The notes below the pieces were generated by a model. That model was not told the DNA's origin. It did not search any database and was given only the letters and a program-made list of their open reading frames with translations. A stretch of 64,000 nt of DNA. It comes from Coleofasciculus sp. FACHB-T130 (GTDB lineage Bacteria; Cyanobacteriota; Cyanobacteriia; Cyanobacteriales; FACHB-T130). Position numbers and translations under genes: made by a program. This document shows, piece after piece, positions 3,261-54,687 of the stretch (its first letter is position 1; every line of letters starts with the position of its first letter). The stretch lies in the NCBI RefSeq assembly GCF_014695375.1, contig NZ_JACJOG010000020.1:1-64000 (forward strand), read 5' to 3'.

Positions 3261-3369
3261 GTATGATTTATTACCTAATGCAATTTCTAGGCCGTGGTAG
3301 GATGACAGGAAAAATTAAGAAGGATGTAAATCTTTCTTAATTAAGGTGTGTGTGAGGAAAAGAGGAAAG

Positions 3370-5391
3370 ATGGCTAAATTTATCTGGAGATCGCTGGTAT
3401 TCAGCCCAGCAGTTTTGGGGGCAGCATTGGTAGTTTCATCGGCAGCGATCGCTGCACAAACGCCTGCCGCTAAAGAAATGATTCAGCCCCAAACGGTAGA
3501 GGCACTACCAGAGTTGCAGCCAGTAGCGATCGCTACTGCGCCAGAAACCCCAACAGTCAGCTCAATCCCTGTGTTTTCAGCTACCGCTGAGAAGTCAGAG
3601 TTAGAGCAGAAAGTGGCTGCGACAGAAGCGCCAGAACAGTTGGCAGTCGCACCCAGCCAGGAGCCAGCAACCGCCGACTCAGCTCAAGCGCTAGAGGTTA
3701 AAACGATTGAAGGCACATCTGTACCAGTGATGCCAGCAGCTGACTCAAAGCTGGCTCAAACAGCCCCAGCAGGAAATACAGTTGACAACAACAGCGTTTT
3801 AGAACAAATCAATCGCTACAGCCAGGAAGGAAATAACTCCCAAAGCCAAGTCACCAACGTCTCCCAACTGTCGGACGTGGAACCAACCGACTGGGCATAC
3901 GAAGCACTGCGAAGCTTGGTAGAGCGCTATGGCTGTATAGCAGGATATCCGGATGGCACCTATCGGGGCAACCGGGCAATGAGCCGTTATGAATTTGCGG
4001 CAGGTTTGAACGCTTGTTTGCTGCAAATCGAGAAATTGATTGCCGCTTCCACAGCAGATTTTGTCACCAAAGAAGATTTAGCCACACTTCAGCGGCTAAT
4101 TGATGAATTTGGGGCAGAACTGGCAACTCTCCGGACGCGGGTAGATAACCTGGAAGGACGGGTGACGTTCCTAGAAAACCATCAGTTCTCGACAACCACC
4201 AAACTGGTGGGTGAAGCGATCTTCGCTGTCACGGACGAGTTTAGCGATCGCGAGGACACCAATACCATTTTTGGCGATCGCGTTCGTTTAGACTTCCAAA
4301 CCAGCTTCACGGGTCGAGATGTATTGCACACCCGTCTTGCTGCGGGTAACACTACACCTTTTCAACCTAATGGTTCATTCGAGGGCAACCAGACCTTTGA
4401 CCTTAATCCCGGTAACAACAACGATATCGCTTTAGATTGGCTGGCGTATGAGTTTCCCTTTGGAGCTTCCAAAGTCTACATTGCCGCTGCGGGAGGAATT
4501 CATGCCGACTACGCTCCCGTCCTCAACCCTTACTTTTATGACGGAGACGGAGGTACCGCCGCACTTTCGTCATTTGCTCAGCAGAGTCCTATTTATCGAA
4601 TCGGTGGCGGTGCCGGTATCGGGATCAGGCTCGGTGTAGGTACAGCACCGATTCTCGGTCCTACTTCCTTGAGCCTGGGTTACTTGGCAGATAATGGCAA
4701 TAATCCTGGCTCATTTACCAGACCTGATGGCGGAACCAGTGATTTTGGTCTATTCAACGGAGACTATTCGGCGTTGGCGCAACTGAATTTTACAGTTAGC
4801 GATCGCTTGGGCTTAGCTGCCACCTACGTCCACGGCTACCATAACGCGGGTGACGGGATTTTCGACCTTGGTGGAAGTCCGCGATCGGCTGGCGGTAGGC
4901 CGGTAACAGGTACTCTCGGAGCTAACGATCCAACTCTTGCAACTGGAACAGGCGCTCGGTTTCCATTAGTACTGGCTAGGGATACCGCACTGATCACTAA
5001 CTCCTATGGTCTTGAGGCTGCCTTACGACTGAGCGACAGATTCTCCCTGAGCGGCTTCGTTGGTAAGACTGATATTAGCGCGGTTGAAAATAGTACCAGA
5101 GGCGAGGTCTGGTACTACGGATTAGGTGTGGCTTTCCCCGATTTAGGTAAGCGGGGGAATATCCTGGGAATTTTTGCAGGTGTAGAACCCTACTTGGCAG
5201 GTCTTGAAGTTCAAGGCAGCCCAGTCGGGATTAAGAACGATCTCTCTTATCACCTCGAAGGATTCTACAAGTACCAGCTGACGGATAACATCTCTGTGAC
5301 TCCCGGCATCATCTGGATTACCGCTCCCAACCAAAATGACGATAACGAAGATGCCGTTATTGGCACGCTCAGAACAACGTTCAGCTTCTAG
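3370..5391 (+). CDS. SLH-domain outer-membrane porin (iron-uptake porin family), copy 2
   Basis: 673 residues, paralogue of the preceding gene with the same order: signal peptide (to about residue 29), shorter Ala/Pro/Glu linker, SLH domain about 168-217, coiled coil, beta-barrel ending in Phe (TTFSF). ATG at 3370 chosen for the GAGGAAAG site and agreement with copy 1. The block from the end of the linker through the coiled coil (about 3768-4204) is almost base-for-base identical to 1567-2003 of copy 1, while linker and barrel loops differ clearly. Barrel loops are where substrate or phage contacts lie, so the two porins may differ in permeability or phage exposure (inference). Confidence 0.88.
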   Translation: MAKFIWRSLVFSPAVLGAALVVSSAAIAAQTPAAKEMIQPQTVEALPELQPVAIATAPETPTVSSIPVFSATAEKSELEQKVAATEAPEQLAVAPSQEPATADSAQALEVKTIEGTSVPVMPAADSKLAQTAPAGNTVDNNSVLEQINRYSQEGNNSQSQVTNVSQLSDVEPTDWAYEALRSLVERYGCIAGYPDGTYRGNRAMSRYEFAAGLNACLLQIEKLIAASTADFVTKEDLATLQRLIDEFGAELATLRTRVDNLEGRVTFLENHQFSTTTKLVGEAIFAVTDEFSDREDTNTIFGDRVRLDFQTSFTGRDVLHTRLAAGNTTPFQPNGSFEGNQTFDLNPGNNNDIALDWLAYEFPFGASKVYIAAAGGIHADYAPVLNPYFYDGDGGTAALSSFAQQSPIYRIGGGAGIGIRLGVGTAPILGPTSLSLGYLADNGNNPGSFTRPDGGTSDFGLFNGDYSALAQLNFTVSDRLGLAATYVHGYHNAGDGIFDLGGSPRSAGGRPVTGTLGANDPTLATGTGARFPLVLARDTALITNSYGLEAALRLSDRFSLSGFVGKTDISAVENSTRGEVWYYGLGVAFPDLGKRGNILGIFAGVEPYLAGLEVQGSPVGIKNDLSYHLEGFYKYQLTDNISVTPGIIWITAPNQNDDNEDAVIGTLRTTFSF

Positions 5392-5525
5392 GGAGACGGA
5401 AGTAGTAGCCCGCACATTGCTAGGACAGGTGGTAATGGGTAAGGGGTGATTACTCCCTCTGTCCCTCTTCTCCCTTGCTCCCCTGCTCCCAGCTTTTGTG
5501 TCGTAAATTTTGCGAACCCGGTTAT

Positions 5526-5550
5526 GCCCCGTATTAGCGGGGCTTTTTTA
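5526..5550 (+). terminator. terminator after porin copy 2
   Basis: GCCCCG (5526-5531) and CGGGGC (5538-5543), 6-base loop, then a T-run. Confidence 0.88.
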
Positions 5551-5634
5551 TTGGCGAATGCTTAAACCGACAAACTCCGGTGGAGAACCGGGGTATACTG
5601 GAATAGACGATCCCTCACACTCGATCTCAAGCTT

Positions 5635-6072
5635 GTGGAACTTTCCTGTAAAACAGAATATGCGCTGTTGGCTCTGTTAGAGCTAGCGTGTCACTACAAC
5701 GACAACGAACCGTTACAAATTCGGCAGATTGCGGCTCAACAAAATATCCCCGATCGATATTTAGAACAGCTGCTGGCGACATTGAGGCGTGGCGGTTTAG
5801 TGCGTAGCCAACGTGGAGCAAAGGGAGGCTATTTGCTGTCGCGGGAACCTTGGAAAATTACGCTCTTAGAAGTTGTGAGTTGCTTGGAAGGATTGGATGC
5901 CAAACCTTCTGAGAACAACAACACTTCCAAAACGGTAGAAAGTGCCGTGGTAGAGGAAATCTGGCAGGAAGTGCATCAAACAGCTAATTCGGTCTTACAA
6001 GGATACACGCTTCAAGATTTAGCAGAAAAACGGGATTCTAGGCGTCAGCTAGACATCATGTATTACATTTAA
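5635..6072 (+). CDS. Rrf2-family transcriptional regulator, cluster-less (CymR-like)
   Basis: 145 residues, GTG start. Winged-helix DNA-binding domain about residues 1-80 with the Rrf2 pattern YALLALLELA ... IPDRYLEQLLATLRRGGLVRS.RGAKGGYLL. The three-cysteine Fe-S cluster motif of IscR/NsrR is absent: the only cysteines I see are isolated ones near positions 5, 19 and 87. This is the pattern of CymR, the Bacillus repressor of cysteine metabolism, and the next gene is cysteine synthase, the known partner of CymR. I infer control of sulfur assimilation. Synechocystis Slr0846 is a related cyanobacterial Rrf2 protein. No Shine-Dalgarno is seen before the GTG; a possible -10 (TATACT, 5594-5599) lies upstream. 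Confidence 0.85.
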   Translation: MELSCKTEYALLALLELACHYNDNEPLQIRQIAAQQNIPDRYLEQLLATLRRGGLVRSQRGAKGGYLLSREPWKITLLEVVSCLEGLDAKPSENNNTSKTVESAVVEEIWQEVHQTANSVLQGYTLQDLAEKRDSRRQLDIMYYI

Positions 6073-6146
6073 AAATTAAAAATTGAAAACTAAAAATTAA
6101 ACATGAAGTATGCTTCTTTTAATTTTTAATTTTGCACTTTTTAATG
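6069..6146. repeat. AT-rich inverted repeat between rrf2 and cysK
   Basis: AAAAATTAAAAATTG-type runs are mirrored by TTTAATTTTTAATTTTG about 30 bases later, with an inner AGTATGCTTC loop region. The same AAAATTAAAAATT motif recurs in several gaps of the window and may act as a terminator-like hairpin. Confidence 0.55.
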
Positions 6147-6195
6147 ATTGATGTTGACTTCTGACTCCTCATAACCAAGAAAAAAACTAAAATCT

Positions 6196-7158
6196 ATGCG
6201 GATTGCTCAAAACATTACAGAATTAATCGGTCGGACGCCTTTAGTACAGTTGAACCGCATTCCCCAAGAGGAAGGCTGTTTGGCTCGGATTGTGGTGAAA
6301 TTGGAGGGGATGAACCCAGCTGCCTCGGTCAAAGACCGGATTGGGGTGAGTATGATTAATGCGGCAGAAGAGCAGGGGTTAATCCACCCAGGCAAAACAA
6401 TTTTAGTGGAACCGACTTCTGGGAATACTGGTATTGCTCTAGCGATGGCGGCAGCAGCCAGGGGCTATCGGCTGATCTTGACAATGCCAGACACGATGAG
6501 TACCGAACGACGGGCGATGCTGCGGGCTTATGGAGCAGAACTGGAACTGACCCCTGGCATTGAGGGGATGAGCCGCTGCATTCGTAGGGCGCAAGAAATT
6601 GTTGACAGCACGCCTAATGCTTATATGCTGCAACAGTTTAGCAATCCAGCCAACGTCCAGATTCACCGGGAAACCACTGCTGAGGAAATCTGGGAGGATA
6701 CAGACGGACAGGTGGATATCCTGGTCGCTGGAGTAGGCACTGGCGGCACGCTTACGGGTGTAGCAGAGGTGATTAAACCACGGAAACCGGGTTTTAAAGC
6801 GATCGCTGTTGAACCCATCAGTAGCTCAGTGTTGTCCGGCGGACGCCCTGGCCCCCACAAAATTCAGGGCATCGGTGCTGGGTTTATTCCCCAAGTGCTG
6901 AAAGTTGAGCTGATTGATGAGGTGATTGCAGTGACAGATGATGATGCGATCGCCTACGGTCGTCGTCTTGCTCGTGAAGAAGGACTGCTTTCCGGCATTT
7001 CCACGGGTGCTGCCCTCTATGCTGCCATCAAGGTCGCTCAGCGCCCCGAAAATGAGGGACGATTGATTGTCATGGTTCAGCCCAGCTTTGGAGAACGCTA
7101 CTTAAGTACACCCCTGTTCCAAGATCCAGAACCGCGAGTGCCAGCTGTGCTGGGTTGA
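6196..7158 (+). CDS. cysK: cysteine synthase (O-acetylserine sulfhydrylase)
   Basis: 320 residues, the usual length. Makes L-cysteine from O-acetylserine and sulfide with PLP. Seen: PLP lysine in ASVKDRIG (K46), substrate loop TSGNTG (74-79), phosphate-binding [10 protein letters not shown] near 178, and a CysK-like C-terminal half with [11 protein letters not shown] and [12 protein letters not shown]. The residue before SVKD is Ala rather than the common Cys. It follows the Rrf2 regulator on the same strand after an AT-rich hairpin, so separate or attenuated transcription is possible. Distinguishing CysK from CysM needs a tree; I favour CysK from the C-terminal half. Confidence 0.93.
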
Positions 7159-46410: not shown

Positions 46411-47976
46411 TTATGGTACCCAGCGCGGATGAAATCCAGCGAAAGGCAGCGCCTCTGGTTGGATCTGGGCTTGGGGTTGTGCAGCTTCTGGCTGGCTCAG
46501 GGGAAGCAGCCAAAGGCGACTGGTCGCGATCGCTTGTCCTTCACTGGTTCTCAAACTGTCTGCCGCGGTTGCCGTCTCGTTGGTCACAACTTGGTCAAAC
46601 AGCAGCGCTAACCCATCCGGTGCCAGACTCATCTGAATATCCCGCTGGGTGGGCAGGAGCAACAGCGGCTCGATCGCCTTTGCATCCAGAGTCCCTTTCT
46701 CTGTCTGGAGGTCAATTTCCGCAATGTAAGGCTGTTCTTGGTACTCTTCTCCTGGCAGTAACTGAGTCAGCAGGCAGTAGAGCGTTTCCTTATAAGGAGC
46801 AAACTGACAGTTGAGGATTGAGCCATTTGTTCGCAGCAGTTCTTTCTGTGCGCCTTGGTTGGTGACTAAAAAGAGCGATCGCGTGTAATCTGTATTAAAT
46901 TTCACCATCGCTGCTGCCGAGCCATCTCTGGCAAAATCCAGCGCCATCCCAAACTTGGGCAGAAAATCTAGCGGTTTGGCTCCTGGTGTCAGCGGCAGAA
47001 TCGCGATGCCCTCTCCCTGAGCGCTTGCCACCGAGGCACTATCCGGCGCAATCAAAAAATCCCCGCCCGGTTGGTTATTCAGCGGTTGCGGCGGTGCATT
47101 CGGTCGGACTACCCACAAGCCAAATTCGGCTGGATTTTGGCTGTTCACCCGCTGAACAACAATCGTTTGCCCATCCGCCGCTAAGTCAAATTTGAGATTC
47201 TGGTAATTTTTATTATCTAAAACCAGATTCATTCTGCCTGGGGGATCGAGATCCTTTTCAGATTTTCCTTTGGTTTTGTAATGGAGTCCGGTACTGACGG
47301 TGTACAGTTGTTGCGCCAATACACCGGGTTGGTTATTCGTCGCGTCGGTGGCAGAAAACAAAACCTTGTCACCATCTGGATACACCTTAAAGTCCATCAC
47401 CACGAGGTCTTTAGGCGTCAGAACGGTTTTTTTGTTTTGGGTGAGGTTGTAGAGGATTAACTGTCCCTGTTCTTCTTTCTCAACGCCCAGGTAGATAAAA
47501 GCGCGATCGCGGGTGCGAAACTGACTCGTAAACGGCTGAATTGCCCTTCCTGTTTTTCCTTGAGTCCCCAAGCGCTCTCGCGCCCCCTGTAATTCCACTT
47601 TATAGTCGGTGTCATAGGATGCTGGGGAAGTGAGGGTATAAGACATCTTCCGCCCCGCCCAACTGAATTTACCCCCCAAAGGTGGAGCGATTCGCAGATT
47701 TGCTTCCACGCTGCTGTGTTCCATCGGGCGGCTAAAGGTGAGGATAAAGGAAGTATCCTCAACACCTATTTTTTCTCCCTGCCAGTTGAAATCCCGCACG
47801 CGAGGTCCGGTGACTAAAAAACAGTTCGTGCCGCAGGCATCGCCACCCCACACGACTAGCCCAATCACCACGCTTAGCACCAGCATCAGCGCTAGCGCCA
47901 GACGGTCAACAGGTTGCCCCCATTTTCGATTTTCGATTTTTGATTTTCGATTTATCACTGCCTTCGTCCTCGCCAA
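46411..47976 (-). CDS. membrane-anchored Ig-like/beta-propeller protein
   Basis: 521 residues. One N-terminal membrane helix (~28-45, ALMLVLSVVIGLVVWG), an Ig-like Big_5 domain (~75-145; TFSRPMEHSSVEANL), then repeated blades of a WD40/TolB-like beta-propeller (DLVVMDFKVYPDGDKVLFSATDA, KFDLAADGQTIVVQ). Probably a periplasmic-face sensor or scaffold. The first ~20 codons are written by AAAATCGAAAATC repeats, so the TTG start at 47976 is doubtful; a start nearer the helix is likely. Follows the TIGR03943 gene by 18 bases. Confidence 0.75.
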   Translation of the reverse strand: MARTKAVINRKSKIENRKWGQPVDRLALALMLVLSVVIGLVVWGGDACGTNCFLVTGPRVRDFNWQGEKIGVEDTSFILTFSRPMEHSSVEANLRIAPPLGGKFSWAGRKMSYTLTSPASYDTDYKVELQGARERLGTQGKTGRAIQPFTSQFRTRDRAFIYLGVEKEEQGQLILYNLTQNKKTVLTPKDLVVMDFKVYPDGDKVLFSATDATNNQPGVLAQQLYTVSTGLHYKTKGKSEKDLDPPGRMNLVLDNKNYQNLKFDLAADGQTIVVQRVNSQNPAEFGLWVVRPNAPPQPLNNQPGGDFLIAPDSASVASAQGEGIAILPLTPGAKPLDFLPKFGMALDFARDGSAAAMVKFNTDYTRSLFLVTNQGAQKELLRTNGSILNCQFAPYKETLYCLLTQLLPGEEYQEQPYIAEIDLQTEKGTLDAKAIEPLLLLPTQRDIQMSLAPDGLALLFDQVVTNETATAADSLRTSEGQAIATSRLWLLPLSQPEAAQPQAQIQPEALPFAGFHPRWVP

Positions 47977-47994
47977 TCTAAAATCTAAAATCGT

Positions 47995-48777
47995 CTAATA
48001 ATCATACGGGTTCTTCGGTGCTTCTATTTTTTTGAGGGAGTTTGCCTTGATGGTGAGTTGGCGTTTGTTTTCTAGAGTTTCAGTGATCATCTCACCTTCA
48101 ACTTCTAACCAAGTATCAGGGGCATAAGCTGTCCGGTTTTCAGTGAGTTTCACTGGCAGTCCCACGGGATAAGCATCTGCGGCACAGCAGGTAATCACAA
48201 ATTGCGAAATTAACAGATATTGCTCAGAGAGTTTTGGTGGATGGACAACAAATCCCTTTACTTTAACTTTTTGACCCGTGTAGGTATCGGGTTCTGGATT
48301 GAAGTTGAGCGTCCGCACCCAGTCCATGAGCGATCGCTCTTCCGGTCTTGTTGAAGAGCGAAATGATTGGGGTTGCACTCGTGTCAAGGTCAAAGAATCG
48401 GTAATTCCCCGAGCGAGCGCTGTGCTTGAGTTAAAGGCGCGGGGGGCAACCAATAAACCAGCGATTGCCGTCAACAGTAACAATACACTGCTCCAACCAG
48501 GAGGAAATAGGGTGATGTGCTGAAGAACTGCCACCGACCGCTTTTCCTTCCGGTTATTTAATATTTTCCCAATCAGTTGCATGGCGCTCAATGCCGCCAT
48601 AATTAACAAGCAGATGGCAGTGACAACAACATATTTAAAGTAATCTTTGTGAATCAGCAGGTATAACTGACCCGTGAACCAATATTTCAGGAGCAAGGCT
48701 CCCCAAGCCGTTAGTGCTAGGACATCCAAGCCGGGAATTATAAATTTTTGAGAAATAATTTTTGGTTGATTGGTCAT
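47995..48777 (-). CDS. TIGR03943-family membrane protein (YcgQ-like)
   Basis: 260 residues. Four N-terminal membrane helices (~20-115), then a soluble OB-like region with VKVKGFVVHPPKLSEQY and CCAADAYPVG, the family's CCxADA motif. Almost always encoded beside a DUF318-type permease (Bacillus ycgR/ycgQ), where the pair is zinc-repressor regulated; I could not find a convincing Zur box here. Function presumed ion- or metabolite-related. The permease gene is 94 bases upstream on the same strand. Confidence 0.85.
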   Translation of the reverse strand: MTNQPKIISQKFIIPGLDVLALTAWGALLLKYWFTGQLYLLIHKDYFKYVVVTAICLLIMAALSAMQLIGKILNNRKEKRSVAVLQHITLFPPGWSSVLLLLTAIAGLLVAPRAFNSSTALARGITDSLTLTRVQPQSFRSSTRPEERSLMDWVRTLNFNPEPDTYTGQKVKVKGFVVHPPKLSEQYLLISQFVITCCAADAYPVGLPVKLTENRTAYAPDTWLEVEGEMITETLENKRQLTIKANSLKKIEAPKNPYDY

Positions 48778-48871
48778 TGGTAAGGGTACGAATCGCTAAT
48801 TTAAGACGGGTTGATTGTGAATCGTTCTAGGAATCTGTTTTCCCTGAGCCAATTGCAACTCACCACTCATC

Positions 48872-49885
48872 TTAGAAAAAGTACGTATACAGGAGAGTCA
48901 TTATAAAAGTCAGCTGAGCTGCAAGACCAAATAGGTAAAACACAGCTCTGGGTTTGAAAATGGATAACATCAAACCGATGCCTTTGAGGTCAATCATGGG
49001 GCCAAATACCAGAAAGGCTAACAAGGAGCCGCTGGTAAATGTTGTGGCAAAGGAAAGGGCAAAAAAGGAATCGACCGTTGAACAAATGGACACGAGAGCC
49101 GCTAATCCCATCATCGCAAGGATGGAGGTGATTGGTCCCTGACCCAAGCTGAGGATCAGTTCGCGGGGAGCGAGTACCTGAATCGCCGCTGCGATCGCGC
49201 TTCCCAAAATTAACACGCCTCCCAATTCCCGCAGCTCTTGCACTGTATTATCAAGGAACATCCGCAGCTTGAAAGGCAGGGGTTTTGACGTAATCGATTG
49301 ACCCATCATCCCACCGCCGGAGACGCCAACGGCGCTCATTATCGGTTGCGGTTGTCCCAGCCAAAACGTGCCGGATTTTAACAAGGTGGGAGTATCGTCT
49401 TCCCGTGCCCCTTGAGTTTGCATCTGAGGTATGGCGCAAGCGATCGCGGGTTGCAGTAACGGCTTCAGATTAGATTGAACGCTGAAAACCGAGGCAATAA
49501 TCGTCGCGATCGATAAAGAAAATACCACCCGCAAAACGACAATTTCTGGCTGATCTCGAAACGCTACCCAGGTTGACCAGATGACGATCGGATTAATGGT
49601 CGGTGCCGCTAGCAAAAACCCAACTGCCACAGGTGCAGGCACTCCCTGCATCAGCAACCGTCGCGCCACCGGCACGTTGCCGCACTCACACACCGGAAAC
49701 AAAAAGCCCGCACAACTGCCTACAAATGCCCCCAATATGGGGTTCTTCGGCATAGCAGAAATCAGCTTGCCCTCATCAATCCACAACAGGAGCAAACCGG
49801 AGAGCAATACCCCCAGTAGTAAGAAAGGCATTGCCTCTACCAGCAAACTCAAAAACAAGGTGAAAGCGTTGTGCAGTTGATTCAT
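48872..49885 (-). CDS. permease of the DUF318/ArsP_1 family (YcgR-like)
   Basis: 337 residues, about eight membrane helices. Conserved FPVCECGNVPVARRLLMQGVPAPVAVGFLLAAPTINPIV is the family signature (CECG, GxP, APTxNP). Exports or imports an unknown substrate; relatives extrude organoarsenicals. Paired with the downstream TIGR03943 protein, and possibly the propeller protein, as a three-gene unit. Confidence 0.85.
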   Translation of the reverse strand: MNQLHNAFTLFLSLLVEAMPFLLLGVLLSGLLLLWIDEGKLISAMPKNPILGAFVGSCAGFLFPVCECGNVPVARRLLMQGVPAPVAVGFLLAAPTINPIVIWSTWVAFRDQPEIVVLRVVFSLSIATIIASVFSVQSNLKPLLQPAIACAIPQMQTQGAREDDTPTLLKSGTFWLGQPQPIMSAVGVSGGGMMGQSITSKPLPFKLRMFLDNTVQELRELGGVLILGSAIAAAIQVLAPRELILSLGQGPITSILAMMGLAALVSICSTVDSFFALSFATTFTSGSLLAFLVFGPMIDLKGIGLMLSIFKPRAVFYLFGLAAQLTFIMTLLYTYFF

Positions 49886-50137: not shown

Positions 50138-51262
50138 TTGCTGCGTTTTCATGCAGCGGGGTACCCTGTGCTGAACGCATTTTTATCACTTCCTTTGTCA
50201 TCCAATCGAAGCCAGCAAGACTTGTGTTTAGAGTCCACGCTGCGATCGCTATCGCTTCACGATTGTCAGATTGAAGATCATCAACTTGGTTGGGAAGTAA
50301 CTCAGACTCTTAAAGCCAATCCGCTACTCCCAGGCGTCATCTTGATGAAGCAGGGTCAATTCGCTGGGATGATTTCGCGGCGGCGATTTTTGGAATACAT
50401 GAGCCGTCCCTACGGATTAGAACTCTTTTCCAAACGTCCCATTGAATGTTTATATCGTTCTGCCGAAACGGAAACTTTGATTCTGAACGGCGATACATTA
50501 ATTGTGGCGGCGGCGCGTCACTCTTTGCAACGAGCGGCTGAGTTACTTTATGAACCGATTGTGGTGGAGGTCGCGCCGCAAGTTTATCGATTATTAGATG
50601 TACATGAATTACTGATTGCTCAGTCGCAAATTCACGAATTAGCAACTGAACTGCTCACTCAACTTTATACTCATCTGGAAGCAGCAAACCAACAATTGCT
50701 GCGCCTTGCCACTTCTGATGGTTTGACTGGGGTTGCTAACCGACACCGTTTTGATAGCTATCTCGATTCCTGTTGGCACCAGATGCAGGCGAGTAATTCA
50801 GCATTATCGCTGATCTTGTGCGATGTTGATTTCTTCAAAAAGTACAACGATACCTACGGTCATCAAGCGGGTGATGACACTTTGCGACAGGTAGCGGGTG
50901 CCATCCAGCAAGCAGTGCAGCGACCGGAAGATTTAGTGGCACGCTATGGGGGCGAAGAATTTGCCGTGATTTTGCCGCACACATCGCTAGAGGGTGCCCT
51001 TCAGGTCGCAGAACGCATCAGATTGACTGTGAAAGCCTTGAAGATAGCCCATGTTTGCTCAGAAGTAAGCGAGTGCATCACCCTGAGTTTAGGCGTTGCC
51101 ACGATCTTTCCTAGCTCAAATTTTTTACCTGCAATGCTGATTGCAGCGGCGGACGAAAAGCTTTATCAAGCAAAACAGACTGGACGAGATCGGTCTCAAG
51201 GTCATTTGCTTCGCATTCCGCGCGATCGCTCATCCGTTTTTGAGCCATCTGCAACTTCTTGA
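50138..51262 (+). CDS. diguanylate cyclase with N-terminal CBS-like sensor
   Basis: 374 residues. C-terminal GGDEF domain (~185-355): SDGLTGVANRHRFD, DVDFFKKYNDTYGH, active site GGEEF (near 270), and RPED five residues before it, the RxxD inhibitory site. It makes cyclic di-GMP from GTP and should be feedback-inhibited. Residues ~25-165 form a paired CBS-like module (PGVILMKQGQFAGMISRRRF ... RPYGLELFSKRP ... YEPIVVEV...YRLLDVHELL) that is shared with the next two genes. The start is TTG 50138 or GTG 50168; the frame is open upstream. Confidence 0.9.
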   Translation: MLRFHAAGYPVLNAFLSLPLSSNRSQQDLCLESTLRSLSLHDCQIEDHQLGWEVTQTLKANPLLPGVILMKQGQFAGMISRRRFLEYMSRPYGLELFSKRPIECLYRSAETETLILNGDTLIVAAARHSLQRAAELLYEPIVVEVAPQVYRLLDVHELLIAQSQIHELATELLTQLYTHLEAANQQLLRLATSDGLTGVANRHRFDSYLDSCWHQMQASNSALSLILCDVDFFKKYNDTYGHQAGDDTLRQVAGAIQQAVQRPEDLVARYGGEEFAVILPHTSLEGALQVAERIRLTVKALKIAHVCSEVSECITLSLGVATIFPSSNFLPAMLIAAADEKLYQAKQTGRDRSQGHLLRIPRDRSSVFEPSATS

Positions 51263-51521
51263 ATACAAATTATTCCGCTTTAGATAAATATATAGAGTTG
51301 TTTTAGTTTAGTAAAAAGTGTAAATTATTGTATTTTTATAACAATTAAAAAACCTCTTGAGTCGTCATTTTTTAACCAAAGGTTAATCAAATCTTTAAAT
51401 CATATTTAAAGTTAAACTAAGGTTTTAGCTGTAAAATTTATAACTTAAATCAGTAGAATGTGGGGATAAAGTAAATTTTGCATCTCCCTATACAGCGAAT
51501 AAGAACTGATTGAGGTAATTT
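51263..51521. other. AT-rich gap between sensor genes 1 and 2
   Basis: About 260 strongly AT-rich bases with no gene and no clear terminator; it could hold a promoter for the second sensor gene. Confidence 0.35.
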
Positions 51522-53063
51522 ATGATGGCTTGGCAAGAATCTCCGCCGGAATTATCAGTTCTTCCTCTGTCCCAGATAAAGAACCTCAATTTAGAGTCAA
51601 CCCTTCAAGAGCTTCCGCTATACGATTTTCAGATAGAAGCCTCTGGTCTGGGGCAGGAAGTTAACAAAGAATTTGAAGGAAATGCGCTGCTACCAGGGGT
51701 CATTTTAACGATAGAAAGTCAGTTTGCGGGAATGATTTCGCGGCGACGATTTTTAGAACAAATGAGCCGTCCTTATGGACTAGAATTATTTTTAAAACGA
51801 CCCTTACAATCTTTATATCAATTCGCCAGTACCCATGTTTTGAAACTTTCTGGCAATACGTTAATTGTAGCGGCGGCAAAGCAGTCTTTGCAACGACCTC
51901 CTGAGCTACTCTATGAACCGATTGTGGTAGAGTTAGCGCCAGGAATTTACCGATTACTAGATGTACATCAATTATTGGTGGCACAGTCAAAAATTCATGA
52001 ACTCACAACCGAGTTGCTCAACGAGCAAACCAAAGCTCAGATGCTGCAAACCGAAAAAATGGCGAGTTTGGGACGGACGGTTGCTGAGGTTGCCCATGAG
52101 ATTAGAAACCCCATTAACTGCATTAATGGGAATTTTGGTTTTGTAGAAACTTATTACAAAAATTTAATCGGTTTATTGGCAGCTTATGAAAAAGCTGAAA
52201 CTTTGAATACAATCGAAGAATTGAAAGAGGAAATTGAATATGATTTTCTTCTAGAAGATTTGCCTAAGTTGATAGGAAGTATGAAGCTGAGTGCGGAACG
52301 ATTAACAAAAATCGTTGGCAGTCTGCGAAACTTTTCTCATATGGATGAAACCAAGAGACAGCCTGCTGACTTACACGAATGTATTGAAAGTACCTTATTA
52401 ATTTTAAATAATCCCATCAAGCAGGGGATTCAATTAATTAAAAAATATGGCGATTTACCACTGGTGAATTGCTACTCAGGTCAACTGAGTCAGGTATTTA
52501 TGAATATCATTAGTAATGCGATTGATGCACTCAAAGATCGAGTCACTGACGGGTCGGATTGGCAACCCCAGATAGAGATTACGACGGAAGTTTTAGAAAT
52601 CCAAGATTCTGAATGGGTTGTAATCCGGATTGCGGATAATGGGCCGGGAATTCCACCAGAAATTCAGGATCGGATTTTTGAGACGTTCTTTACTACAAAG
52701 CCGGTGGGCAAGGGAACGGGATTGGGATTGGCAATTAGTTATCAAATTGTTACTGAGAAACACGGGGGTCATTTATCGGTGCGATCGCGTAGTGTATGTC
52801 CAGAGGATTGCTCGCCTTTGGCGTATCCTCCTCCTAGCACCGCCTCCCATAATGGTTCCGTAGTTGAAGCGTTGTCGGTGCCCGTAGCTTCCGCCGTAGG
52901 AATAGGAATCGCAGATTCGTATCCCCGGCAAGACAGAATCTATAGTGCGGCTAGCGGATGCGAGGCACCAGCAGCGGCACAGTTGCTAGCTAATTCCAGG
53001 GAGATAGAAGATTCACAACCAAGGATGGGCACAGAATTCGAGATCCGATTGCCACTCGGTTAA
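51522..53063 (+). CDS. histidine kinase with CBS-like sensor (gene 2 of the array)
   Basis: 513 residues. Same N-terminal sensor as the preceding cyclase (~30-165), a short helical linker, HisKA-type H-box VAHEIRNPINCINGN (H191), N-box NIISNAIDAL (~328), G1 DNGPGIPPE (~372) and G2 GKGTGLGLAIS (~396). So it has a complete phosphotransfer and ATP-binding core, in the long-loop hybrid of the HAMP-less Synechocystis type. Between G2 and the final MGTEFEIRLPLG is an ~80-residue low-complexity insertion encoded by repeat DNA. No membrane helix; cytoplasmic. No response regulator gene nearby. Confidence 0.9.
   Translation: MMAWQESPPELSVLPLSQIKNLNLESTLQELPLYDFQIEASGLGQEVNKEFEGNALLPGVILTIESQFAGMISRRRFLEQMSRPYGLELFLKRPLQSLYQFASTHVLKLSGNTLIVAAAKQSLQRPPELLYEPIVVELAPGIYRLLDVHQLLVAQSKIHELTTELLNEQTKAQMLQTEKMASLGRTVAEVAHEIRNPINCINGNFGFVETYYKNLIGLLAAYEKAETLNTIEELKEEIEYDFLLEDLPKLIGSMKLSAERLTKIVGSLRNFSHMDETKRQPADLHECIESTLLILNNPIKQGIQLIKKYGDLPLVNCYSGQLSQVFMNIISNAIDALKDRVTDGSDWQPQIEITTEVLEIQDSEWVVIRIADNGPGIPPEIQDRIFETFFTTKPVGKGTGLGLAISYQIVTEKHGGHLSVRSRSVCPEDCSPLAYPPPSTASHNGSVVEALSVPVASAVGIGIADSYPRQDRIYSAASGCEAPAAAQLLANSREIEDSQPRMGTEFEIRLPLG
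52781..52995 (+). repeat. repeat-derived insertion within histidine kinase
   Basis: The CA domain is interrupted after HGGHLSVRSRSV by DNA beginning GCGATCGCGTAGTGTATG (52781-52798), continuing into low-complexity codons (CPED, PPPSTAS, SVPVASAVGIG). The same starter sequence opens the insertion of the next kinase at the same protein position. Confidence 0.8.
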
Positions 53064-53193
53064 GGCGCTTGTTCACAATTTTTCTGGAAAATAGTAGCAG
53101 AAATTAACCTCAAGGGCAGGTGGAAAACTGCTGAAAATGGTAGTCTATGGTCATAGCTGATTCCAGCTTCACTGCTGCATTTGTGGGCGTTGT

Positions 53194-54687
53194 GTGTCGG
53201 TACCAAACGGATTTATATCACTTCCGTCCTTGTCCCAAGGGAGCGATCGCGACCTCTCTATAGAGTCAACTCTTGGGGAATTGCCGCTGTACAACTTTCT
53301 GGTAAAACCCATCTGTCTGGGTGTGGATATTGCCCGAATTTTTGAGAAGCATCCTCTACTGCCAGGAGCCATCTTAGTCGAACAGGGTCAGTTTGCTGGG
53401 ATGATTTCGCGGCGGCGGCTTTTGGAGTACCTGATCCGTCCTCATCGACTAGAGCTGTTTTTGCACAAACCGCTGCACATCCTCTACAAGTACGCCCACT
53501 CTGAGGTTTTAATCCTTCCCGATAGTACGCCGATTTTGACAGCAACCCACCAGGCGCTGCGGCGATCGCCTGAATTTTTGGCAGAACCTGTCGTAGTGCA
53601 AGTGGGAGAATCTGATTATCGGCTGTTAGATGTTCAGGATTTGAATGTTGTTTCTTGGCAAATCCGGGGAATCGAAGCTCAGGTGCGATATGAACGCACC
53701 CAAGCTCAGATGATTCAAAGTGAGAAAATGGCAAGCTTAGGGCGCTTAGTAGATGGAGTTGCTCACGAAATTTTAGACCCGGTTGGCTTTATTTGGGGGA
53801 ACTTAACGTATGTCTCAACTTATACTGAAAACTTGATAGAATTGCTGTCTGCTTATGAGACACATCTGCCGCAGATTCCTGAAGAAATTGCGGCTCTGAA
53901 AGAAGACATAGAATTTGATTTTGTACAACAGGACTTACCCCGCTCAATTGCCAGCATCCGAGCCGGAGCAGAACGATTGAAAAAGCTCGTGATGAGTCTG
54001 CAAAACTTCTGCCATATTGATGATGTTTATCCTAAGCCTGCCGATTTACACGCTTGTTTAGATAGTATTGTTTTGCTTTTAAAAAGTCGTGTAAACAACG
54101 AAATTGAAATTATCAGAAATTATGGTCATTTGCCGCCGGTACAATGCTACGCGGGTCAATTGAATCAGGTTTTCATGAATATCCTGACGAATGCGATTGA
54201 TGCATTGATTAATCAAGCAGTCGTTCAGCAGTTTACTCAAGATTTTCAAGGAACATCGCCCCCGAATATTCAAGAGAAACCTCGGATCGAAATCACGACT
54301 GAGGTTTGTTCGCACAAGGCAAGTCAGACAGGAGTTTCTGATTCGCGCTGGGTTTCCATTCGCATTGCCGATAATGGCCCTGGGATGTCTCCGGAAGTAC
54401 AGCAGCAAATTCTTGAGTCTTTTTCTGTAGAGAAACGCTCTGCTAAAGAGACGAGTTTATCGGTAAGTTATCAGATTGTGACGGCGAAGCACGGTGGAAA
54501 ATTAAGAATGCGATCGCGTAGTGTATGCCGTTTGGGCGACTCGCTTAGTGTATGTCCTGAGGATTACTCGCGCAGTGGATGCCCAGAGAGCGGATCTCCT
54601 CAGGGGTATGCCACTCCTAGCAATTCCAGCGGAGAACCTAAACCAGGCATTGCCACCGAATTTGAGATTTTGTTGCCTTTGGTTTAA
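53194..54687 (+). CDS. histidine kinase-like protein with decayed ATP-lid (gene 3 of the array)
   Basis: 497 residues, GTG start. Third copy of the sensor module (~20-160), then the H-box VAHEILDPVGF (H191; the usual N after HEIxx is replaced by D), N-box NILTNAIDAL (~328) and G1 DNGPGMSPE (~392). The G2 lid, GTGLGL in gene 2, reads SAKETSLSVSYQIV, so the glycine-rich loop is lost and ATP binding is probably impaired. Its insertion (~437-485) carries three variants of the GCGTAGTGTATG repeat. It may be an inactive partner that heterodimerises with gene 2 (inference). Confidence 0.85.
   Translation: MSVPNGFISLPSLSQGSDRDLSIESTLGELPLYNFLVKPICLGVDIARIFEKHPLLPGAILVEQGQFAGMISRRRLLEYLIRPHRLELFLHKPLHILYKYAHSEVLILPDSTPILTATHQALRRSPEFLAEPVVVQVGESDYRLLDVQDLNVVSWQIRGIEAQVRYERTQAQMIQSEKMASLGRLVDGVAHEILDPVGFIWGNLTYVSTYTENLIELLSAYETHLPQIPEEIAALKEDIEFDFVQQDLPRSIASIRAGAERLKKLVMSLQNFCHIDDVYPKPADLHACLDSIVLLLKSRVNNEIEIIRNYGHLPPVQCYAGQLNQVFMNILTNAIDALINQAVVQQFTQDFQGTSPPNIQEKPRIEITTEVCSHKASQTGVSDSRWVSIRIADNGPGMSPEVQQQILESFSVEKRSAKETSLSVSYQIVTAKHGGKLRMRSRSVCRLGDSLSVCPEDYSRSGCPESGSPQGYATPSNSSGEPKPGIATEFEILLPLV
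54511..54635 (+). repeat. repeat-derived insertion within kinase-like protein
   Basis: CGATCGCGTAGTGTATG at 54511 is followed by related units GCTTAGTGTATG (54543) and GCGCAGTGGATG (54570), translated as RSRSVCRLGDSLSVCPEDY. The insertion site equals that in the preceding kinase. Confidence 0.75.

Follow-up and report, generated by a model that had tools for sequence, protein, structure and literature searches.

Three genes and their common N-terminal module

The window, by which we mean the whole stretch of 64,000 nucleotides of Coleofasciculus sp. FACHB-T130 DNA that was analysed, contains three consecutive genes, all on the same strand, which share an N-terminal module and differ in what follows it. 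The features of the locus are these.

47995..48777, - strand: DUF1980 protein, the usual partner of the permease
48872..49885, - strand: ArsP_1-type permease, divergently oriented; its place beside gene 3 is conserved across orders
50138..51262, + strand: gene 1, predicted CBS-pair module with a GGDEF diguanylate cyclase, 374 aa, TTG start
50207..50662, + strand: predicted CBS-pair module of gene 1
50708..51193, + strand: GGDEF domain of gene 1
50921..50932, + strand: RPED, a product-inhibition I-site of the RxxD type, five residues ahead of the active site (read from the sequence)
50948..50962, + strand: GGEEF active-site motif of gene 1, intact (read from the sequence)
51522..53063, + strand: gene 2, predicted CBS-pair module with an intact histidine kinase, 513 aa
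51570..52037, + strand: predicted CBS-pair module of gene 2
52095..52097, + strand: phosphoacceptor His192 of gene 2, in HEIRNP, with Asn at +4
52713..52730, + strand: G2 box GTGLGL of gene 2, intact
53194..54687, + strand: gene 3, predicted CBS-pair module with an apparently non-catalytic histidine-kinase-like protein, 497 aa
53242..53706, + strand: predicted CBS-pair module of gene 3
53764..53766, + strand: conserved His191 of gene 3, in HEILDP
54445..54459, + strand: KETSL of gene 3 where KGTGLGL would stand; a deletion of two residues has removed the G2 box

An earlier note on this DNA had described three adjacent genes with a common N-terminus and, as outputs, a GGDEF domain, a full histidine kinase and a kinase-like protein. 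This description was right. The limits it gave for the genes are exact, the module of about 150 residues is 64% identical to that of gene 1 in gene 2 and 44% in gene 3, and FAGMISRRR, (Y/H)xLELF and YRLLDV are present in all three modules. The Pfam domains agree with the three outputs, "kinase-like" standing for a lost G2 box and an altered H-box. The array, a small group of signalling genes found in filamentous cyanobacteria, has one shared predicted CBS-pair sensor and three different outputs. The note had also held that the array has no response regulator or receiver gene, and Pfam finds no receiver domain in the three genes.

The GGDEF domain of gene 1 scores 170 bits in Pfam, and the gene product is apparently a competent diguanylate cyclase. 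Gene 2 matches HisKA (30 bits) and HATPase_c (84 bits), all its boxes are intact (HEIRNP, MNIISNAIDAL, DNGPG, FETFF and GTGLGL), and it is apparently a competent histidine kinase. Compared with a sister genome, dN/dS is 0.238 for gene 1, 0.178 for gene 2 and 0.144 for gene 3.

The genes are separated by 259 bp (genes 1 and 2) and 130 bp (genes 2 and 3). Promoter and terminator scans of the array gave scores not above those of shuffled sequences, and an Rfam scan of the window from 48 to 56 kb gave no match. In genes 2 and 3 the CA domain contains, close to its end, a low-complexity insert (52785-52990 and 54510-54640), with GCGATCGCGTAGTGTATGYC in common; in gene 2 its dN/dS is 0.69, against 0.18 for the gene overall. 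The inserts bearing GCGATCGCGTAGTGTATGYC have exact matches nowhere else in the genome. A dispersed repeat as their origin is out, GCGATCGCNTAGTGTATGYC occurring exactly only twice genome-wide, both times in these genes.

In a profile search the 6.2-Mb genome has exactly five strong matches to the module: genes 1-3, with E-values of 1e-84 or better, and two elsewhere at 1e-49 to 1e-55, both of them kinases (loci L062 and L063). At L062 a further module kinase (4618-6222) is followed by a same-strand protein with receiver and kinase domains (3314-4405). A search for the module on plasmids gave no match.

That the module is CBS-like, as the earlier note suggested, agrees with its predicted structure. 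An AF2 model made from an alignment of 87 modules (the window and GTDB loci) has a pLDDT of 88 and a pTM of 0.81, with two beta-alpha-beta-beta-alpha repeats packed as a pair. The Foldseek matches listed are all CBS-pair-containing entries or complexes, with E down to 1e-5, and include CNNM Bateman domains, AcuB and AMPK gamma. With VIA-align, the best match is MJ0922 (Z 12.6, rmsd 2.4, 125 aligned), followed by AcuB (Z 12.5) and the cyanobacterial CBS-CP12 (Z 12.0). A model of the full gene 3 protein has the same pattern of elements at its N-terminus. The shared module is, by these models, a CBS-pair fold. Routine annotation misses it, because the Pfam CBS score stays below the cut-off: PF00571 gives 15.6 bits on gene 3 against a cut-off of 24, no match at E 1 on genes 1 and 2, and 20-21 in related module proteins. 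A sequence search of the PDB with the module returned only weak CBS matches (best E 0.005).

The earlier note also had an adenine nucleotide in mind as ligand. This is unsupported. The canonical adenosine-binding CBS motif, taken as G-h-x-[ST]-x-x-[DN] in at least one repeat, is absent from the 87 modules. Repeat 1 has the S, but in 87/87 its acidic position is taken by R, Q, L or Y; in repeat 2 that position is Asp in only 9/87 and the S/T position is D, N, E or R. With the motif missing, an adenine nucleotide is a guess. In repeat 1 a G, an S and an R are invariant or nearly so and may mark a conserved site, perhaps one that binds an anion.

In an even sample of the phylum, 40 of 146 genomes have the module, and the search for other fusions that the note had advised found many of them in cyanobacteria: GGDEF, GGDEF-EAL, PAS-GGDEF-EAL, kinase, kinase-REC, altered kinase, MCP signalling domain and SpoIIE phosphatase (L180:2972-4348), as well as some C-termini that have no assigned domain. 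The fusions to an MCP-type signalling domain (L156:2300-3631, L189:3319-4536, L192:2822-4048) are possible chemoreceptor-like proteins of cyanobacteria that would work without an extracellular sensor.

A tree was built from the module alone, with the kinase columns left out. For several output classes its starred branches require three changes or more; the swapping of outputs that the earlier note had proposed has thus taken place repeatedly. A recent duplication and shuffling as the origin of the three window genes does not stand: each window gene groups with its own counterpart from other genomes, so the array is old.

Gene 3 and its distribution

The main surprise of the array is gene 3, an ancient and apparently non-catalytic kinase which bears the histidine and has a CBS sensor. 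It matches HATPase_c only (46 bits, above the Pfam cut-off), and HisKA is not matched. Where gene 2 reads HEIRNP, gene 3 reads HEILDP, and KGTGLGL has become KET--SL, two residues shorter and without the G2 glycines; the F-box is altered too. Orthologues were searched for with 15 of their number, and the best 80 GTDB loci of 375 candidates encoding some relative were listed. The same G2 loss (KET--SL, with minor variants) is present in 80/80 of these loci and in every array genome. Their genera include Nostoc, Calothrix, Fischerella, Microcoleus, Oscillatoria, Lyngbya and Leptolyngbya-like ones, among others. In about 100 genomes, then, the catalytic site is lost in the same way and the phosphoacceptor His is kept.

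In a partly redundant set of 109 orthologous sequences, of which thinning at 80% identity leaves 56, the His is present in 109/109, Asp at +4 in 109/109 and Glu at +1 in 106/109; active relatives have Asn at +4 in 57/57 alignable sequences. The Asn of the N-box and the Asp of G1 are mostly kept, for which reason some nucleotide binding may remain, but G1 is also lost in some orthologues (L129, IMHNGSSL; L113, IVDNSKEL). Identity among gene 3 orthologues is 82% in the signalling (linker) helix and 80% in the His helix, against 56% and 54% in active relatives; in the ATP lid and F-box it is 51% against 63%. Versus the sister genome, dN/dS in the linker plus DHp is 0.075.

Judged by these patterns, gene 3 is a maintained protein under purifying selection that is predicted to have no normal catalytic site. 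It has probably ceased to autophosphorylate with ATP. HisKA kinases need the residue at His+4 (the Asn/Thr phosphatase motif) for phosphatase activity, and since Asp replaces it in gene 3, this function is predicted to be lost as well. The picture of three equivalent outputs in the earlier note is thus wrong, because gene 3 is predicted to be without kinase activity.

On the module-only tree all gene 3 proteins fall into a single starred clade (63 rows), in which the six rows labelled HK (L131, L133, L136, L139, L174, L182) are, by their alignments, orthologues with variant motifs. One orthologue (G317:C1:2519495-2520445) has a frame that stops at 328 aa, at about the start of the CA domain; this short copy may be decaying, or it may indicate that the protein can do without the CA domain.

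The array is not a stable unit, and the range of gene 3 is wider than that of the array. We compared the window genome with 59 relatives of its order, a set which overlaps the GTDB loci. Cyclase, kinase and gene 3 are contiguous in nine genomes (G000, G001, G002, G004, G005, G009, G036, G050 and G058; the array of G004 has one extra kinase), and other relatives of the order have kinase-gene 3 or split versions. The earlier note had suggested a look at the array in other strains. Among the 80 listed GTDB loci, a few of which end at contig boundaries, 6 have all three genes; 11 have kinase and gene 3, and 63 have gene 3 with no neighbouring module gene. Related genomes are not independent, and these counts are descriptive. 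The presence of partners was judged by module search, because the phylum search with full gene 3 scored four candidates per genome. Gene 3 is the only full module protein in at least eight genomes (G413, G204, G338, G164, G145, G221, G322 and G067). Often an intact module kinase lies directly 5' of gene 3, with a gap of 30-520 bp. Such pairs occur in the heterocystous genera Cyanomargarita (L084) and Scytonematopsis (L114) and also in Oscillatoriales, which suggests that kinase plus gene 3 is an old pair, often broken.

The neighbourhood has some constant elements. An ArsP_1-type permease lies divergently upstream of gene 3 in 34 of the 80 listed loci, as it does in the window, so the permease locus is tied to gene 3 rather than to the array; it is placed likewise beside lone gene 3 in 27 further loci, mostly of Nostocales. 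We found no function for the DUF1980/permease pair in the literature. The same divergent block of the window (46411-49885, - strand) includes a 521-aa protein with a weak Ig-like match. A GGDEF gene lies less than 1 kb downstream of gene 3 in 9 of the 80 listed loci, which represent about three lineages and are not independent; it is a PAS/GAF-GGDEF gene in the two relatives checked. Large GGDEF genes after gene 3 were noticed at L045:12465-16895, L049:11751-14654, L064, L067-L069, L135, L137, L140, L141 and L143. Large HEAT-repeat proteins with a match to the NACHT C-terminal helical domain are found 3' of the array in two genomes, at L046:13931-17206 and L051:14382-17399.

Possible roles of gene 3

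Several suggestions can be made regarding what gene 3 does. The one we tentatively prefer, putting its chances somewhat short of even, is that gene 3 is a CBS-regulated phosphoacceptor or phosphotransfer subunit resembling ChpT, Spo0B, PhyT or FasC, and that the cyclase of the array adds c-di-GMP. Gene 3 would not phosphorylate itself with ATP. Phosphorylation of its DHp helix would occur in trans; the donor would be the kinase of gene 2, if the genome has one, and otherwise another kinase or the receiver of a hybrid kinase. Gene 3 would then hand the phosphoryl group to a response regulator encoded elsewhere. The transfer would be gated by the ligand of the CBS pair. In array genomes only, the gene 1 cyclase would respond to this ligand or to one related to it, with c-di-GMP as a further output. 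Donors other than gene 2 have to be allowed for, because gene 3 often occurs without a module kinase; with at least eight gene 3 genomes lacking such a kinase, gene 2 cannot be an obligatory partner. In favour of this reading are the fixed His, Asp(+4) and G2 deletion, the single clade, the well-conserved signalling and His helices beside a less conserved ATP lid, the low dN/dS and the frequent position directly 3' of an intact module kinase, and also the precedents of FasB/FasC and of Spo0B, ChpT and PhyT. In keeping its DHp His next to a degenerate CA domain, gene 3 has the feature typical of ChpT, Spo0B and PhyT, and the strict conservation of the His favours phosphotransferases or the trans-phosphorylated group over the group that only binds. 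On the other side, no Pfam family of the ChpT type came up for any of 15 gene 3 members, with E allowed up to 10; docking might also require a strictly conserved His that is never phosphorylated; and the nucleotide binding that may remain also speaks against phosphotransfer. There is, moreover, no candidate response regulator linked to gene 3: a receiver lies within three genes of it in 1 of the 80 listed loci and in none of the other 79.

Docking of this kind is the substance of a somewhat less likely alternative, in which gene 3 never carries phosphate and acts, depending on the CBS ligand, on an active kinase, as RetS acts on the active kinase GacS, or on a regulator in the manner of DivL and DivK~P. 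Kinases usually contact one another, or their regulators, through the signalling helix and the His helix, and these are the most conserved parts of gene 3, while conservation is looser in the ATP-lid region. In DivL a pseudokinase has been turned into a regulator sensor (PMC4211667), and heterodimers of a CA-dead kinase with its paralogue are documented for ChrS/HrrS (PMC9491836). Pure docking, however, would not need the His, which is replaced in DivL and present in 109/109 gene 3 sequences. It is improbable that gene 3 has remained an active kinase whose G2 box merely has an unusual form. The His and Glu(+1), the mostly intact N-box and G1, and a HATPase_c score above the cut-off would fit activity, but every orthologue lacks the G2 glycines and two residues, the F-box is altered and even G1 is gone in some. 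A decaying pseudogene is hardly credible: a catalytic motif is lost and the G317 copy is cut off before the CA domain, but dN/dS is 0.14, the frames are full-length in the 80 listed loci and the same altered motif recurs across orders.

A suggestion of another kind, made in the earlier note and compatible with either role of gene 3, is that one ligand switches cyclase, kinase and gene 3 together, so that c-di-GMP and phosphotransfer are driven in parallel. We regard this as possible but lean against it. All three genes have the same core motifs in the module, the array is kept together in the nine genomes of the order (the window's included) and in 6 of the 80 listed loci, and GGDEF genes also recur directly 3' of gene 3. 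The modules have diverged, however, to about 44-65% identity, so that a common ligand is not assured; most genomes keep gene 3 without an adjacent cyclase; and with gaps of 259 and 130 bp the genes need not be co-transcribed, the promoter and terminator scans giving no signal above shuffles.

If phosphotransfer is correct, a broader picture may be drawn, although taken as a whole we find it doubtful: an ancient family of CBS-gated histidine phosphotransferases, derived from a dead kinase and shared by filamentous cyanobacteria, would form a ligand-controlled junction of phosphorelays, to which some lineages have added a kinase and a cyclase reading the same ligand. Whatever its role, the conservation of the altered kinase speaks for a conserved, uncharacterised component of signalling and against gene decay.

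To our knowledge, degenerate histidine kinases have usually been noticed singly. Here Nostocales, Oscillatoriales and Leptolyngbya-like lineages have all kept one such form with fixed signatures. Its sensor is part of the same polypeptide, and some lineages have an intact twin alongside as a natural control. This makes testable both the use of a kinase without its own catalysis and the coupling of phosphotransfer to c-di-GMP through a CBS ligand. In Anabaena, the level of c-di-GMP controls cell survival (PMC13075795).

Comparison with known systems

The reuse of degenerate kinases in signalling is already known, and we found no earlier description of the gene 3 family in the literature searched. 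These searches returned no described cyanobacterial degenerate histidine kinase and no CBS kinase/cyclase array; an account that tallies the CBS-bearing histidine kinases of cyanobacteria makes no mention of degenerate kinases (PMC9953108). As a sensor, the module resembles the CBS-pair (Bateman) domains of AcuB, CBS-CP12 and AMPK gamma in fold, but its sequence identity to them is only 6-16%.

One close likeness in layout is FasB/FasC/FasA of Streptococcus, where, as in the array, the gene of an active kinase adjoins that of a putative pseudokinase which has kept its His; the active CA domain is proposed to phosphorylate this His in trans, within a heterodimer (PMC12675982). FasB and FasC sit in the membrane and have a response regulator linked to them, whereas the array proteins have CBS sensors, no extracellular sensor and no linked regulator. 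The array also has a cyclase alongside, and its pseudokinase is often found alone.

Spo0B, ChpT and PhyT are phosphotransferases that come from degenerate kinases (PMC5898713). Like gene 3, they keep the His, have a degenerate catalytic domain and can occur without a linked kinase (PMC5898713, PMC3433190). Gene 3 differs in not matching their Pfam models, in having its own CBS sensor and in a CA domain that HATPase_c still sees; a role in transfer would be by analogy with them. DivL (PMC4211667) and RetS are cases of a kinase fold reused as a regulator, as has been proposed above for gene 3. In DivL the His is replaced by Tyr and the other boxes are retained (PMC4211667), whereas gene 3 has retained its His but not its G2 box.
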